From an uncultured Bacteroidales bacterium (GTDB taxonomy: Bacteria > Bacteroidota > Bacteroidia > Bacteroidales > UBA932), in assembly GCA_900320545.1 (NCBI GenBank), contig ONSU01000009.1:62001-126000 (forward strand): a stretch of 64,000 nt of DNA, read 5' to 3'. Position 1 is the first letter of the stretch; each line of letters begins with the position of its first letter. The position numbers and the translations under genes were made by a program. Below are positions 57,332 through 63,339 of this stretch, in pieces. Under the pieces are notes generated by a model, which was given only the letters and a program-made list of their open reading frames with translations, was not told where the DNA came from and did no database searches.

Positions 57332-58744
57332 CTAGAAACTGAACTTCGCCATCGCGAGGATGCGGTGGTTGCCGACCCAGTGGAGGTCGGCGTTGACGCG
57401 GCCGCGGTCGTCGCGGGTGCCGTACTGGACGACGGTGTAGTCGTACTCGAGGGCGAACTGCATCTTGCCGAGGTTGTAGGCGAAGGTGGGGGAGACGCGC
57501 ATCATCTGGTTGATGTTCTTGAATCCGTTGCCGCTGAAGTAGTACAGTTTGTCGTCGAGGATGGTCTTGCCGCCGGCGAGGCCGAAACACTTCACGTAGC
57601 CGACCATGCAGAGACCCTGGAATTTCTTGCCGACCGTGGCGGAGATGAAACTGACGCTGCTCTGGGTCGGAGTGTATTCATAGGAGATGCCGTCCGCCTT
57701 GAGGGCCGTGGCCGCATAGCCGCCGTTGAGCTGCATGTGCTCGCCGCTCTGGACGAAGGCGCTCTTGGCCTTGATCTGCCAGTTCTTTCCGGTGTACTGC
57801 AGGAAGATGAACGGGTTGAAGGTGGTGAGCCACTCGTCGTACTTCTTGTCGGTCTTGTTGGTGACCGTCTTGTCGTCGGAGATTTTGATCTGGTGCGGAT
57901 TGCCGTCCGTGTCGTTGACGGTGATAGTTTCCCCGGAAATCGTGGCCGTGGTGGTGGCATATCCGTAGTGCGGGCGGATGCTCAGCGCGGAGACGCCGAC
58001 GCGGCCGAGGAAACCGCCGGACTTGAAGGTCAGGCCGAGGTAGGCCTCCGGGAGGATGGCGTGGCGCTGGTATTTGTTGGTGCCGCCGTCAGGTCCGCTG
58101 GAGCGGTACTGCATCTGCTCGATGAAGCCGGCCGAGAGGGATATGTGTTTGCCGAAGTTGGCGTTGTACATGATCTGCGCGCTACGGTTGAACGGGGAGA
58201 ACGGGGCGCCGGTCTCGAGGGCGATCGTGTTGGCCAGGTCGGCCGCGAGCGGATGCCAGGTCTGGCCGATGAGGAGGCTGTGGGAGAATTTCTCGGAAGG
58301 CTCCCAGGAGAGTTTGGCGTAGGCCTGCCGCATCCGGAGGGTCGCGACGTTGCCGCCCGAGTTGAGGCAGTAGAAGTCGGCCTCGATCTTGGCCTCGATG
58401 GCGGTGCCGCCGAACTTGTAACCTTTGATGTCGAGTCCGAGGCGGGTGGTGAGGGCCTGGTAGCCGAAGTTGCCGACGGCGTTGACGTCGGTGCCGTTCA
58501 CGAGACTCTGGTCGAGCGGGATGAAGAAGAAGAGGTCTTCGGTGAGGGATTTGGTGGCGCGGGTATCGTAGAATCCGTAGGTGCGGATGAAGCCGTAGGG
58601 CTTGAAGTGGGCCTTGAGTTCTTCCTTCACCGCCTCTTTCCGGGCGGCTTTCCGGGCCGCCTTGTCGGCGGGTTCCTGTGCGACGGCGTCGGCGGCTCCG
58701 AGGAGGGAGGCGCTCAGCGCGAGAAACATAAATATTCTTTTCAT
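57332..58744 (-). CDS. DcaP-like outer-membrane porin
   Basis: A 470-residue protein with a signal peptide (to about residue 23, VAQ), a short Ala/Lys-rich helical stretch (PADKAARKAARKEAVKE), and a beta-barrel that opens with PYGFIRTYGFYDTRA and closes with HRILAMAKFSF. The arrangement resembles DcaP-type porins, which admit dicarboxylates and other small anions in other phyla. It is divergent from a SLC13-type transporter-fusion gene (58861), which would fit uptake of the same class of compound, but this is inference. Confidence 0.75.
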   Translation of the reverse strand: MKRIFMFLALSASLLGAADAVAQEPADKAARKAARKEAVKEELKAHFKPYGFIRTYGFYDTRATKSLTEDLFFFIPLDQSLVNGTDVNAVGNFGYQALTTRLGLDIKGYKFGGTAIEAKIEADFYCLNSGGNVATLRMRQAYAKLSWEPSEKFSHSLLIGQTWHPLAADLANTIALETGAPFSPFNRSAQIMYNANFGKHISLSAGFIEQMQYRSSGPDGGTNKYQRHAILPEAYLGLTFKSGGFLGRVGVSALSIRPHYGYATTTATISGETITVNDTDGNPHQIKISDDKTVTNKTDKKYDEWLTTFNPFIFLQYTGKNWQIKAKSAFVQSGEHMQLNGGYAATALKADGISYEYTPTQSSVSFISATVGKKFQGLCMVGYVKCFGLAGGKTILDDKLYYFSGNGFKNINQMMRVSPTFAYNLGKMQFALEYDYTVVQYGTRDDRGRVNADLHWVGNHRILAMAKFSF

Positions 58745-58860: not shown

Positions 58861-61800
58861 ATGACTGCAGAAAAAGGTAAATTCAATGTGAAGCTGCTGG
58901 TGTTCCTGCCGCTCGTGCTGATCATTACCATCTTCCTCTGGGCCGTTCCGACGTCATTCTTCGGCATCGAAGCCCTTACCGTCGTACAGCAGAGAGTCAT
59001 CGCGCTGTTCGTATTCGCCGCGCTGATGTGGATCTTCGAGATTATCCCGAACTGGACCACCTCCCTGCTCGTCATCGTGATCTCCCTCCTGACGATGTCC
59101 AACAAGGGCATCGGCTTTTTCTGTGACCCTTCCGCGGGACAGCTGGTCAACTACAAGGACCTGATGTCGGCCTTCGCCGACCCGGTCGTGATGCTGTTCC
59201 TCGGCGGATTCGTCCTCGCCATCATGGCCGAGAAATTCGGATTGGACGTCACCCTTGCGCGGATCCTGCTGAAACCCTTCGGCACCAAGCCCCGGATGGT
59301 CCTGCTGGGATTCCTGGTGGTGATCGCCGTGTTCTCGATGTTTATGTCCAACACGGCCACCGCCGCGATGATGCTGGCCTTCCTGGCCCCGGTGCTCGCC
59401 GTCCTCCCGAAGGATGACAAGGGCCGGATCGCCCTGGCGCTCGCCATCCCCGTATCGGCCAACCTCGGCGGCATCGGCACCCCGATCGGCACCCCGCCGA
59501 ACGCCACCGCCGTCAAGTTCCTCGCCGAGGCCAACTACGATGTCACCTTCGGCGAATGGGCGATGCGTATGATTCCGTTCGTGATCATCATGATCGTCAT
59601 CGCGTGGATTTTCCTCCAGATCCTGTTCCCGTTCAAGAGCAAGGAGATCAAGCTGGAAATCCCTGAGAACAAGCGCAAGACCGACTGGAAGACCTATGTG
59701 GTATGGATTACCTTCATCGGCACGATCCTCCTCTGGGCGACCGAGCAGTGGACCAAGATCAACTCCAACGTCGTGGCCCTCATTCCGCTCGGCGTGTTTA
59801 CCGCGACGGGTCTTTTCGGCAAGGATGACATCAAGGAGATCAACTGGAGCGTGCTTTGGTTGGTGGCGGGAGGTTTCGCCCTCGGTACCTGCCTGCAGGG
59901 AACCGGTCTGGCGAAGGTCCTGATCAATGCCATTCCGTTCGGCTCGATGTCGGTGGTGCTCGTGCTGGTGATCGCCGGCCTCGTGTGCTACTTCCTGTCG
60001 AACTTCATCTCCAACAGCGCCACCGCCGCCCTCCTGATCCCGATCCTTATCGTGGTCGCAGGCGGTATGGCAGACCCTGAAGCGGCCAACAACGCCAGTT
60101 TCGTGGCTCTCGGCGGCACCAAGGCAATGATCAGTTTCATCGCTGTCTGCGCCTCCATCGCGATGCTCTTCCCGATTTCCACGCCGCCGAACGCCATCGC
60201 CTCTTCGACGGGCCTGGTGGAGACCAAGGATATGACCAAGATCGGCCTGATCGTCGGCGTGATCGGTTTTGTCCTCGGCTATTTCTGGCTGACCAAACTG
60301 TTCCCGTTCGAGAACAAGCAGAGCGAAGCCATCCAGGAGTCCGTCCTGGAGAAGAAGGCCGCCCAGTACGCCCTCGTGGAGATCGGCGAGCCCGACCTCA
60401 GCGGGATCAGCGAGAACGGCAAGGAGGTCCTGAACCTCTACCGCTTCGCGGCGGACGAGGCCGACAAGATCTACTGGCTGCAGAGCGGTGCCGACAAGGC
60501 CGCCCTGGATTCGCTCGGAGACGAGGCCGCCAGCCTCTATGCCGGCATCAACTACGGTCCTTGGGACCGCATCGACGGCAAGGCCTTCCTGCCCGGTTAT
60601 CCGGAGCACAGGCCGCTGGGCGCCGGATTCTATCCTGCCGATATGACGGCGGAAGAGTTCGAGGCGTTCCAGGATCCCGCCAAGACGAGTCCTTACACGG
60701 TCATTACCCGCGGAGCCGACAACACGCTTTCGGCCGAATGGTACCACGACGCCTACAAGGAGCATATCGACAAGATCTGCAGCTACCTCAGCGCGGCTGC
60801 CGACCTCACCATCAAGCCGAGTGTCCGCAACTATCTCCAGAAGAAGGTGAACGCCCTCCGTACGGATGATTACTATGAGAGCGACCTCGCCTGGATCGAT
60901 ATGGCCGACAGCAAGATGGATCTCGTGATCGGTCCCAACGAGACGGCCGACGACGAACTCTACGGCAGCAAGGCCTCCTTCGGCGCTTTCGTGATGCTCA
61001 AGGACGAGCACAAGACCGAGGCGCTCCGGAAGTTTACGCAGATGCTTCCCGAACTCCAGAAGCAGCTGCCCGGCGAGGCGCAGTATCATTCTTTGGTTCC
61101 CGGCGGCGCATCCAACATCTTCGACTGCACCGCGATGTACTATGCCGGCAATTACAACGCCGGATTCAAGGTCATCGCCCTCAACCTGCCGCACGATCCG
61201 AAGGTCCTTTCCGCGAAGGGATCCCGTACCATCCTCTTCTCCAACATCATCAAGGAGAAGTTCAACATGACGGTCTTCCCGCTCGGCGGCATCCTGCTCT
61301 CGCATGATGCACAGCCGCATCTGGACGCCGACGCTTTCTACTGGAACATCGTCTTCCGCGAGGTCGCCCACGGACTTGGCGTGGCCGAGACCGTGAACGG
61401 AAAAGGCTCCGTCAAGGATGCGCTCGGCACCGAAGCGGAGACCTGGGAGAAGGCCAAGGACAATATCCTCGGCGTCTATCTGTCCTGCTACCTGATCGAC
61501 AAGGGCGAGATTCCCGCCCTGATCACCCGCGAGGATGCGATGACGACCTTCGTCGCCAGCGTGATCCGTTCCGCCCGCTTCGGTGCGGAAGGCGCGACCG
61601 GCCGTGCCAACGTGATGATTTACAATTATCTCGTGGAGCAGGGCGCCATTACCCGCGGAGAGAATGCCCGGTACTCGATCGACTTCGGGAAGACCGCGCA
61701 GGCGATCGATGACCTCGGCGCGCTGATCCTCAAGACCCAGGCGACCGGTGACTACGACTTTGCGAGCGCTTTCGCCGCGGAGCATGCCGTCATCGGCAAG

Positions 61801-61875
61801 GACCTTGCCGCCGACTTCAAACTGATGAACCTTGAGAATATCCCGGTCGACATCCGCTTCTCCTGGAAGAAGTAA
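58861..61875 (+). CDS. SLC13/DASS-type transporter fused to an M49-like pseudopeptidase domain
   Basis: A 1004-residue two-part protein. Residues 1-about 490 are a multi-spanning anion/dicarboxylate transporter of the DASS (SLC13) family, with the paired SNT-type motifs SNTATAAMM (163-165) and SNSATAALL (384-386). Residues about 505-1004 match a Bacteroidota relative of dipeptidyl-peptidase III (peptidase M49), with GAGFYPADMTAEEFEAF and ending DLAADFKLMNLENIPVDIRF. The zinc motif HExxH is REVAH here (R833, E834, H837), and the expected EExKAD is EKAKDN (863-868), so two metal ligands appear lost. The soluble part is probably a regulatory or binding domain. No break or frameshift is visible between the parts. 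Separate genes are the norm in the families. Confidence 0.85.
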   Translation: MTAEKGKFNVKLLVFLPLVLIITIFLWAVPTSFFGIEALTVVQQRVIALFVFAALMWIFEIIPNWTTSLLVIVISLLTMSNKGIGFFCDPSAGQLVNYKDLMSAFADPVVMLFLGGFVLAIMAEKFGLDVTLARILLKPFGTKPRMVLLGFLVVIAVFSMFMSNTATAAMMLAFLAPVLAVLPKDDKGRIALALAIPVSANLGGIGTPIGTPPNATAVKFLAEANYDVTFGEWAMRMIPFVIIMIVIAWIFLQILFPFKSKEIKLEIPENKRKTDWKTYVVWITFIGTILLWATEQWTKINSNVVALIPLGVFTATGLFGKDDIKEINWSVLWLVAGGFALGTCLQGTGLAKVLINAIPFGSMSVVLVLVIAGLVCYFLSNFISNSATAALLIPILIVVAGGMADPEAANNASFVALGGTKAMISFIAVCASIAMLFPISTPPNAIASSTGLVETKDMTKIGLIVGVIGFVLGYFWLTKLFPFENKQSEAIQESVLEKKAAQYALVEIGEPDLSGISENGKEVLNLYRFAADEADKIYWLQSGADKAALDSLGDEAASLYAGINYGPWDRIDGKAFLPGYPEHRPLGAGFYPADMTAEEFEAFQDPAKTSPYTVITRGADNTLSAEWYHDAYKEHIDKICSYLSAAADLTIKPSVRNYLQKKVNALRTDDYYESDLAWIDMADSKMDLVIGPNETADDELYGSKASFGAFVMLKDEHKTEALRKFTQMLPELQKQLPGEAQYHSLVPGGASNIFDCTAMYYAGNYNAGFKVIALNLPHDPKVLSAKGSRTILFSNIIKEKFNMTVFPLGGILLSHDAQPHLDADAFYWNIVFREVAHGLGVAETVNGKGSVKDALGTEAETWEKAKDNILGVYLSCYLIDKGEIPALITREDAMTTFVASVIRSARFGAEGATGRANVMIYNYLVEQGAITRGENARYSIDFGKTAQAIDDLGALILKTQATGDYDFASAFAAEHAVIGKDLAADFKLMNLENIPVDIRFSWKK

Positions 61876-62655: not shown

Positions 62656-63339
62656 ATGAGCGCAAAGAGCATATTGGTACGTTATGGGATTTCCACCCTG
62701 GGCCTTGTCATCGTGGCCCTCGGCGTGGGCTTGTCCATCAAGTCCAATCTCGGCATCGCGCCGCTCTCCTGTATCCCTACCATCCTGAGTCTGCGCTGGC
62801 CCGAGATATCCGTCGGCACCTTTACGTGGGGGTTCAACTTGCTCTTCATCGTGCTGCAGGCCTGCATTCTCCGCCGGGAATTCACTTGGAAACACGTTCT
62901 GCAGGTCCTCCCGATCCTGATTTTCGGATATCTGGTGGACGGCGCCATCTGGCTCTTCGACGCCCTGGATGCACCCGCGACGAATTATCTGGTCCAGATG
63001 CTTCTCTGCCTCGCGGCCGTGGTCCTCACCGCGGTCGGCATCCGGCTGGAGATTGTCGGCAAGGGGTGGATTCTCCCGGCCGACAGCACGCTCCACGTCA
63101 TCGAGGCGCGCACGAAAGCCCGCTTCAGCACCATCAAGGTCGTGATGGATGTAGCGCTCGTGGTGATCACCGCGATTCTCGCGCTCGTCTTTTTCTCCCG
63201 GTTCACCGGAAACGACACCACGAATGTCATCCGCGAGGGAACGGTCATCCAGGCCGTCCTGACCGGGCTGTGCATGAAACTGACCGACCCGCCGCTGGAC
63301 CGCATCTTCGGGCCCGTCGTAGCGAAAGTAATGAAATAA
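62656..63339 (+). CDS. YczE/YitT-like integral membrane protein
   Basis: A 227-residue protein with about five membrane segments (ISTLGLVIVALGVGLSIKSN, LLFIVLQACILR, LVQMLLCLAAVVLTAVGIRL and others). The opening GLSIKSNLGIAPLSCIP is typical of the YczE/YyaS/YitT-like group, whose function is unknown; transport is assumed. It is 18 nt before the GlpT-like gene. Confidence 0.8.
   Translation: MSAKSILVRYGISTLGLVIVALGVGLSIKSNLGIAPLSCIPTILSLRWPEISVGTFTWGFNLLFIVLQACILRREFTWKHVLQVLPILIFGYLVDGAIWLFDALDAPATNYLVQMLLCLAAVVLTAVGIRLEIVGKGWILPADSTLHVIEARTKARFSTIKVVMDVALVVITAILALVFFSRFTGNDTTNVIREGTVIQAVLTGLCMKLTDPPLDRIFGPVVAKVMK

Follow-up and report, generated by a model that had tools for sequence, protein, structure and literature searches.

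Why would a membrane transporter carry a peptidase domain that has lost the residues with which enzymes of its family bind zinc? The question is raised by a gene in a 64,000-nucleotide stretch of DNA (here called the window) from an uncultured Bacteroidales bacterium (GenBank assembly GCA_900320545.1, contig ONSU01000009.1, positions 62,001 to 126,000), in which a carrier of the DASS/SLC13 family runs without a stop into a domain related to dipeptidyl peptidase III (DPP III) of family M49. DASS carriers, the human members of which form family SLC13, are generally regarded as acting without partners, and among the top listings from 5.39 million open papers no description of a DASS–M49 fusion or of a transporter-linked dead M49 protein was found. 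Two conclusions are well supported by the data below: that the domain is, by sequence, catalytically dead yet maintained on the transporter, and that it belongs to a family, here termed pseudo-M49, of non-catalytic periplasmic accessories of carboxylate or acidic-solute transporters. Our preferred reading, to which we assign a probability of about 0.5, is a DASS elevator with a non-catalytic M49 clamshell at its periplasmic end, the cleft of which would bind a carboxylate solute and present it to the transport domain.

Transporter and M49 domain share one reading frame

An initial annotation of this DNA, made from the sequence alone, described an unbroken frame leading from an SLC13-type permease into some 500 residues close to M49/DPP III enzymes. 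Both parts of that description held. The frame (ATG at 58861, 1,004 codons, stop-free) had been placed with exact coordinates (Table 1), and its first half is a full DASS domain: it matches TIGR00785 over residues 45–472 (1.3e-70; 238.3 bits against a curated cut-off of 198.6), PF03600 (4.9e-46), PF00939 (5.7e-36) and, in a search of the Protein Data Bank (PDB), VcINDY (4f35, 4e-31), with PHO90 as the best DASS-type PDB match of the fusion protein. The motif S163-N164-T165 (SNT) is invariant in the 45 rows of our alignment A3, and the second motif of this type reads SNS (S384-N385-S386), N385 being present in 39 of the 45 rows and replaced by His in 6 that are more distant DASS paralogues. TPP motifs lie at 211–213 and 441–443. 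The DASS half carries both SNT-type motifs of the kind that bind substrate carboxylates, and T167, where Arg159 of LaINDY, a residue found in exchangers, would fall, suggests a cotransporter, putatively sodium-coupled and for dicarboxylates, rather than an exchanger.

The second half scores 20.1 bits against PF03571 (Peptidase_M49), just under the curated cut-off of 21. Judged by sequence, M49 homology is nevertheless certain: DPP III of Caldithrix abyssi (CaDPP III, 6eom) matches residues 486–999 at 5e-81, and that of Corallococcus (CoDPP III, 5zum) residues 496–999 at 1.5e-63. Structure prediction, which the annotation had proposed, led to the same place. An AlphaFold model of residues 496–1004, built from 78 aligned sequences, had a mean pLDDT of 94.1, and DPP III crystal structures were its top Foldseek matches (6eom, E 2e-40, TMq 0.88; 5zum_A, E 1e-38, TMq 0.92), placing the predicted M49 fold across the whole C-terminal domain. 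Foldseek also relates the model to PolE, an enzyme that depends on Fe and pterin (9j33, 9j2r and further entries, with E values from 2e-8 to 7e-8). In a model of the full-length protein, pLDDT fell below 50 at residues 485–493.

Table 1. Features of the fusion gene and its divergent neighbour (window coordinates)
Feature	Position	Strand	Basis
Whole fusion gene, 1,004 codons + stop	58861..61875	+	ATG at 58861, no internal stops
DASS/SLC13 transporter half, residues 16–472	58906..60276	+	TIGR00785, PF03600, PF00939 and VcINDY 4f35 matches
Last predicted transmembrane helix (455–480) and low-confidence linker (481–495)	60223..60345	+	full-length model, junction comparison
Pseudo-M49 (DPP III-like) domain, residues 496–999	60346..61857	+	6eom, 5zum, predicted structure, Foldseek
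Former zinc motif 1, R833-E-V-A-H837 (CaDPP III: HEISH)	61357..61371	+	alignment to 6eom and M49 family rows
Former zinc motif 2, E863-K-A-K-D-N868 (CaDPP III: EECKAD)	61447..61464	+	alignment to 6eom and M49 family rows
T913, replacing the carbonyl-stabilising His (CoDPP III His465)	61597..61599	+	alignment to 6eom/5zum and family rows
Divergent neighbour, porin-like by eye, recurring beside DASS genes	57332..58744	-	no Pfam, NCBIfam or PDB match

The zinc site has been replaced

Zinc is held in CaDPP III by His379, His383 and Glu412 (PMC5805324), the Glu being numbered here as in the 6eom chain, where the crystal section of that paper prints 441/442. HEISH (H379–H383) aligns with R833-E-V-A-H837, and EECKAD (E411–D416) with E863-K-A-K-D-N868. 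The ligands H379, H383 and E412 correspond to R833, H837 and K864, so that two of three are lost and H837 is kept; the catalytic Glu is retained as E834. Neither signature of family M49 is present: R833-E-V-A-H stands in place of HExxH/HExxGH, and EKAKDN in place of EExK/RAE/D, the second Glu of which binds zinc. These are the substitutions that the annotation had named, and intact ligands displaced to another part of the fold, which it had allowed for, do not account for them: the 6eom alignment crosses both motifs without displacement, which leaves no intact HExxH elsewhere in the fold.

A further residue has changed, T913 occupying the position of His465 of CoDPP III, whose human DPP III counterpart we take to be H568. 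Docking assigns to His465 the stabilisation of the substrate carbonyl (PMC9820243). Because two of three zinc ligands and this second catalytic residue are gone, the domain is probably without catalytic activity, and the word 'dead' in the annotation is right by sequence (R833, K864, T913); the comparison is one of residue identities.

A single Arg-bearing clade with a remodelled cleft

We aligned 113 M49 domains with Arg at the first zinc His (R-type) and 43 relatives with HExxH (active), identical and contained sequences having been removed. Alignments A3 and A4 took the place of A2, which combined separate halves with the fusion and was discarded after its M49 rows fell onto the DASS half at 17–22% identity. 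The two groups differ without exception at four positions. Position 833 is Arg in 113/113 R-type and His in 43/43 active rows, and three residues found in all active rows occur in none of the R-type rows: His at 913, Asn at 778 (CaDPP III Asn324, which holds the peptide N-terminus) and Tyr at 696 (CaDPP III Tyr242). Five residues (T650, I651, S654, M686 and D697) are invariant in R-type rows and not in active relatives. E834, E863, K866 and N775 are invariant in all 156 rows, and N868 occurs in 100 of the 113 R-type rows. The peptide N-terminus anchors Glu240 and Asn321 (CaDPP III numbers) are kept in 105/113 and 113/113. Because Asn324 and Tyr242 are lost throughout, the R-type cleft has been remodelled.

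The rest of the zinc site is more variable. Of the 113 R-type rows, 74 retain the second zinc His and 62 the zinc Glu, with 62 retaining both, and the window protein is among the more altered members; R833 is the only former ligand position that is both new and invariant. Summed over seven former zinc-site residues, net charge is -3 in all 43 active rows, hence -1 with Zn2+, and the same positions in R-type rows sum to -1 (59 rows), +2 (35), +1 (11, the window protein's kind), -2 (7) or 0 (1). The His-to-Arg and Asp-to-Asn changes therefore often make up the charge of the metal, and in a second group (R, K837, K864) the site is cationic.

These counts bear on the idea that the domain is still an enzyme which, without metal or with a metal regained, feeds the transporter by acting on peptides or amino acids. 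E834 is invariant, 62 of 113 R-type proteins keep the second zinc His together with the zinc Glu, and PolE is an instance of the fold being reused for other chemistry. All 113, however, lack both the first zinc His and the His that stabilises the carbonyl, and in the window protein two of three ligands are gone; we regard retained catalysis as very improbable.

Quick tree searches under LG+G4 (131 sequences, 91 of them R-type) placed the R-type as one clade inside the HExxH sequences with a support of 100, a single change accounting for the His/Arg difference. Wherever a genus code was available, the R-type genes seen belonged to the genus of the window, except for one from a different family of the same order. 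Among the best 30 order-level loci, 28 carried HExxH, the other two being the window and that outlier (genome G627), in which the R-type gene (locus L229, 4012-5775), the only one seen coded outside the genus, adjoins a gene for an AspT/YidE-type antiporter and may have been laterally transferred. The named records among the loci were Bacteroidales metagenome-assembled genomes (MAGs), many of them, by title, from the rumen or other ruminant gut, and no relative was confirmed on viral contigs.

The fusion recurs and its dead half is constrained

The annotation had proposed a search for other DASS–M49 fusions. Of 400 genomes sampled from a larger set for the genus, at least 10, the window's included, encode both halves in one stop-free frame, one of them starting at a contig end. 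Four of the other nine are also present in named records (L119, L190, L191 and L195) of at least three projects. In wider samples, the window's own gene was the only frame with both halves among the matches listed from 295 genomes of the order (M49 query) and from 395 genomes at phylum level (whole-protein query, E no higher than 1e-20), with an 813-codon frame in G827 left aside. Two further kinds of candidate were rejected: a fusion-like second DASS paralogue in G016, G003, G073, G286, G399 and G084 has a stop between two open reading frames, and a 1,052-codon frame around the M49 of G871 is the upstream extension of a GC-rich frame, with an internal lipoprotein-like start and HExxH. The two trees bear differently on the number of fusion events: fused rows needed 2 changes on the M49 tree, where a single clade was compatible with the data (p-AU 0.44), and 3 on the DASS tree, forced by starred branches.

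Ratios of nonsynonymous to synonymous substitution (dN/dS, Nei-Gojobori) were calculated for eight pairs of fusions, selected from 45 and in part with a genome in common (dS up to 1.4). For the M49 half they were 0.069–0.162 in seven pairs and 0.322 in the eighth, the most diverged, compared with 0.019–0.077 for the DASS half of the same pairs. The M49 half evolves faster than the transporter half yet is clearly constrained.

Whether the fusion could be an assembly join of two genes, or the M49 domain a passenger in the course of being lost, can be judged from the same data. The genomes are draft MAGs, and M49 was not found in unfused sister species. Against this, at least 10 genomes share the single frame, four of these genomes recur among named records from three or more projects, and dN/dS is well below 1. 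We reject an assembly join, and artefact or decay together can scarcely be credited. The joining of this domain to a transporter, as annotated, is real and recurrent.

Pseudo-M49 genes are linked to two kinds of transporter

Among 124 distinct R-type genes, 112 were fused to or near a transporter gene: 10 were fused to DASS, 75 adjacent to DASS (within 400 bp) and 27 adjacent to a gene of the AspT/YidE type (PF06826, PRK03818). None of the 43 HExxH genes had either transporter adjacent. The query that retrieved many of the R-type loci contained DASS; among loci fetched by the M49 domain alone, linkage was 78/87 for the R-type (the window counted) versus 0/30 for HExxH. Fisher p values of 3e-20 and 3e-29 overstate the significance, as the sequences share ancestry; many order-level loci had flanks of only 1.5 kb, and AspT was sought with a single query sequence. 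In a subset of loci from named records, DASS-adjacent pairs lay on one strand in 51/51 cases, with gaps of -115 to 35 bp. Partner type tracks the M49 tree, requiring 10 changes where shuffled partners need 38.5 on average (100 shuffles, lowest 31, n=82).

Pseudo-M49 lipoprotein genes paired with AspT/YidE occur at L036, L053, L229, L127, L140, L145 and about 20 more loci, some with a LysR regulator nearby. At L031, L035, L134, L143, L170, L175, L182 and L185, pseudo-M49 genes of two different classes (R/H/E and R/K/K at the former ligand positions) stand on either side of a second DASS paralogue; the DASS frame of L170 is split in two.

Fusion would exchange a lipid anchor for a transmembrane helix

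By a simple rule of our own (hydrophobic stretch, small residue, Cys), a lipobox-like signal was found in 98/98 unfused R-type proteins that could be judged, 5 more being cut at a contig end, and in 41/43 HExxH proteins. No Cys was seen around the junction in any of the 10 fusions. When coded on the same strand, unfused M49 genes were upstream of the fusion-type paralogue DASS1 in 40/40 cases; near the second paralogue, DASS2, 16 were upstream and 18 downstream. In all 10 fusions M49 is at the C-terminus of DASS1.

The N-terminus of VcINDY is cytoplasmic. Its C-terminus faces the outside of the cell, and TM11 forms part of the mobile transport domain (PMC7553777). By homology, we infer that the DASS C-terminus is periplasmic and that M49 is attached through TM11 to the moving domain. 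The C-terminal order fits this topology, because only C-terminal placement puts a signal-less M49 domain in the periplasm. With DASS C-termini periplasmic by homology, the last transmembrane helix would take over from the lipoprotein anchor in the fusion.

A binding protein, a regulator or a scaffold

DPP III is two-lobed and closes on ligands (PMC5805324). The clamshell would descend from zinc dipeptidyl peptidase lipoproteins in which the first zinc His was lost once, to Arg, after which a lipoprotein family linked to transporters would have spread and, in certain species, been fused to the carrier. In the cleft, the universal Arg at the old zinc position, often with an extra Lys, would bind a solute that bears a carboxylate, either a dicarboxylate or an acidic amino acid; closing on it, the clamshell would present it to the transport domain like a TRAP or TAXI binding protein, raising affinity or capture. 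A clamshell with an Arg site, encoded next to or fused with carriers from families that handle dicarboxylates and acidic amino acids, has the features that a carboxylate-binding protein would be expected to show; ligand binding, the identity of the ligand and its hand-over are each put forward on that footing. The wider proposal, that a zinc peptidase became a substrate-binding protein through a His-to-Arg carboxylate site and that the resulting lipoproteins serve at least two unrelated secondary anion transporters, sometimes within one polypeptide, is offered tentatively, the odds being somewhat against it.

Several observations weigh against the binding-protein reading. The second zinc His and the zinc Glu coexist in 62/113 R-type rows and several cleft residues vary between members, so a single ligand common to the family is not shown by these sequences. 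The invariance of E834, E863, K866 and N775 may be structural, because these residues are invariant in active relatives too, and the full-length model, with a pTM of 0.52, leaves the domain arrangement unfixed; a positive-inside loop count was set aside because the helices of that model do not settle the topology. To our knowledge, VcINDY-type DASS proteins need no binding protein. Twelve of 124 R-type genes had neither transporter, 4 of them near contig ends. The neighbours of 10 of the 12 were compared and no partner was common to most: a hydrophobic gene of 522–525 residues adjoins M49 at L043 and L125 (the L043 copy without an NCBIfam match), a LysR-type gene is close to M49 at L163 and L161, and the unlinked copy of L130 adjoins a second M49 that itself touches DASS. 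Conversely, M49 was fused or adjacent for only 9/26 DASS1 genes in 37 genomes of the genus (G000 included; counted by eye in incomplete MAGs), and the close unfused relatives G085 (68% complete), G340 and G175 (93%) have DASS, with M49 not found. Such optionality counts against a strict need of DASS for the partner.

Optionality is also what might be expected if the dead domain were a regulator or clamp, sensing a periplasmic peptide or metabolite and locking or freeing the elevator with no hand-over of substrate. SPX domains regulate PHO90-type DASS proteins from the opposite side of the membrane, and PHO90 is the best DASS-type PDB match here. The domain would moreover sit on TM11 of the moving domain, and the equivalents of Glu240 and Asn321 are largely or wholly kept. 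The same pseudo-M49 family, however, also pairs with an unrelated antiporter family, and the equivalents of Asn324 and Tyr242 are lost in every member. We consider regulation unlikely while taking it seriously. Of the roles that the initial annotation had listed (sensor, scaffold or peptide-binding regulator), the idea of a maintained non-catalytic domain on a transporter stands, peptide binding is weakened by the loss of Asn324 and Tyr242 in 113/113, and in place of a sensor the wider family of transporter-linked lipoproteins points to a transport accessory.

The binding-protein reading has a precedent. TAXI-GltS of Bordetella pertussis (BP0403/BP0402) is described as a lipoprotein translationally coupled to an elevator carrier, with fusions in Lachnospiraceae, and its authors state that functional coupling still needs experiment (PMC12344293). 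It resembles the pseudo-M49 systems in that a periplasmic lipoprotein is paired with a secondary carrier of the elevator type whose solute is acidic, and in natural gene fusions; it differs in that TAXI has a classical binding-protein fold and a measured ligand and is N-terminal in fusions, whereas the partner here is a dead DPP III, C-terminal and with a ligand that is putative. TRAP systems (SiaPQM and others) likewise join a DASS-fold membrane part (PMC12344293) to a two-lobed periplasmic protein whose conserved Arg binds the carboxylate and acts as an Arg–carboxylate filter (PMC4646407), but the binding parts have no known sequence relation and the window's membrane part is a true DASS, not TRAP QM. 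Like the partners of binding-protein-dependent secondary transporters, pseudo-M49 is coded with or fused to an elevator carrier, its periplasmic side given by homology only; unlike them, it has the DPP III fold in place of a classical solute-binding-protein fold. VcINDY and PHO90 share the full DASS domain with its SNT-type motifs, but the C-terminal M49 part is unmatched in DASS chains among the PDB matches listed, and PHO90 has a long N-terminal extension. CaDPP III and CoDPP III, M49 proteins with the pentapeptide motif, have the same fold across the whole domain but differ in zinc ligands 1 and 3, in the carbonyl-stabilising His and in the absence of a fused transporter. AspT/YidE-type antiporters are the second partner family of pseudo-M49 genes but not that of the window, and no fusion with them was seen in the loci fetched.

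Neighbouring genes

The divergent porin-like gene (Table 1) belongs to a family of about 410–470 residues with an export-signal-like start, seen also at L115 (5198-6472), L108 (6468-7811), L034 (600-3211), L100 (1183-2457) and other loci. It had no Pfam or NCBIfam match in two members scanned, and no PDB match with the window protein's sequence or a profile of 11 members. Possibly it is the outer-membrane part of the same uptake route. Its recurrence beside DASS in many loci is relevant to a scaffold, in which the M49 domain would merely hold together a complex (outer-membrane protein, lipoprotein, transporter or dimer) around an empty cleft. CoDPP III dimerises through its lower domain (PMC9820243), and the five residues invariant in R-type rows alone could form an interface. 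An empty cleft fits poorly with R833, which is invariant in the dead clade, as are E834, E863, K866 and N775, perhaps for structural reasons, and we judge a pure scaffold improbable.

In five loci from a single species group the gene immediately next to the fusion encodes a glutamate dehydrogenase, and such a gene also adjoins the unfused DASS of G175 (L100, 5572-6912; L101, L102, L103, L105 and L115), a hint at glutamate or 2-oxoglutarate metabolism. Downstream of the fusion, the window encodes a small DUF6198 membrane protein (62656-63336), flanked by a shikimate dehydrogenase-like gene and the start of an MFS-like gene (GlpT-like by eye).

Significance

A covalently attached, selected and non-catalytic periplasmic domain suggests an extra layer of capture or control for DASS carriers. 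The authors of the TAXI-GltS study note that whether it is the elevator mechanism that allows such partners could be tested on additional classes of binding-protein-dependent secondary transporters (PMC12344293), and pseudo-M49–DASS is a candidate class of this kind, with natural fusions. One bacterial genus contains both HExxH and dead paralogues, which would also make this a clean case of evolution from enzyme to accessory. Finally, these data flag as probably not peptidases a family that homology search alone would name dipeptidyl peptidase III.

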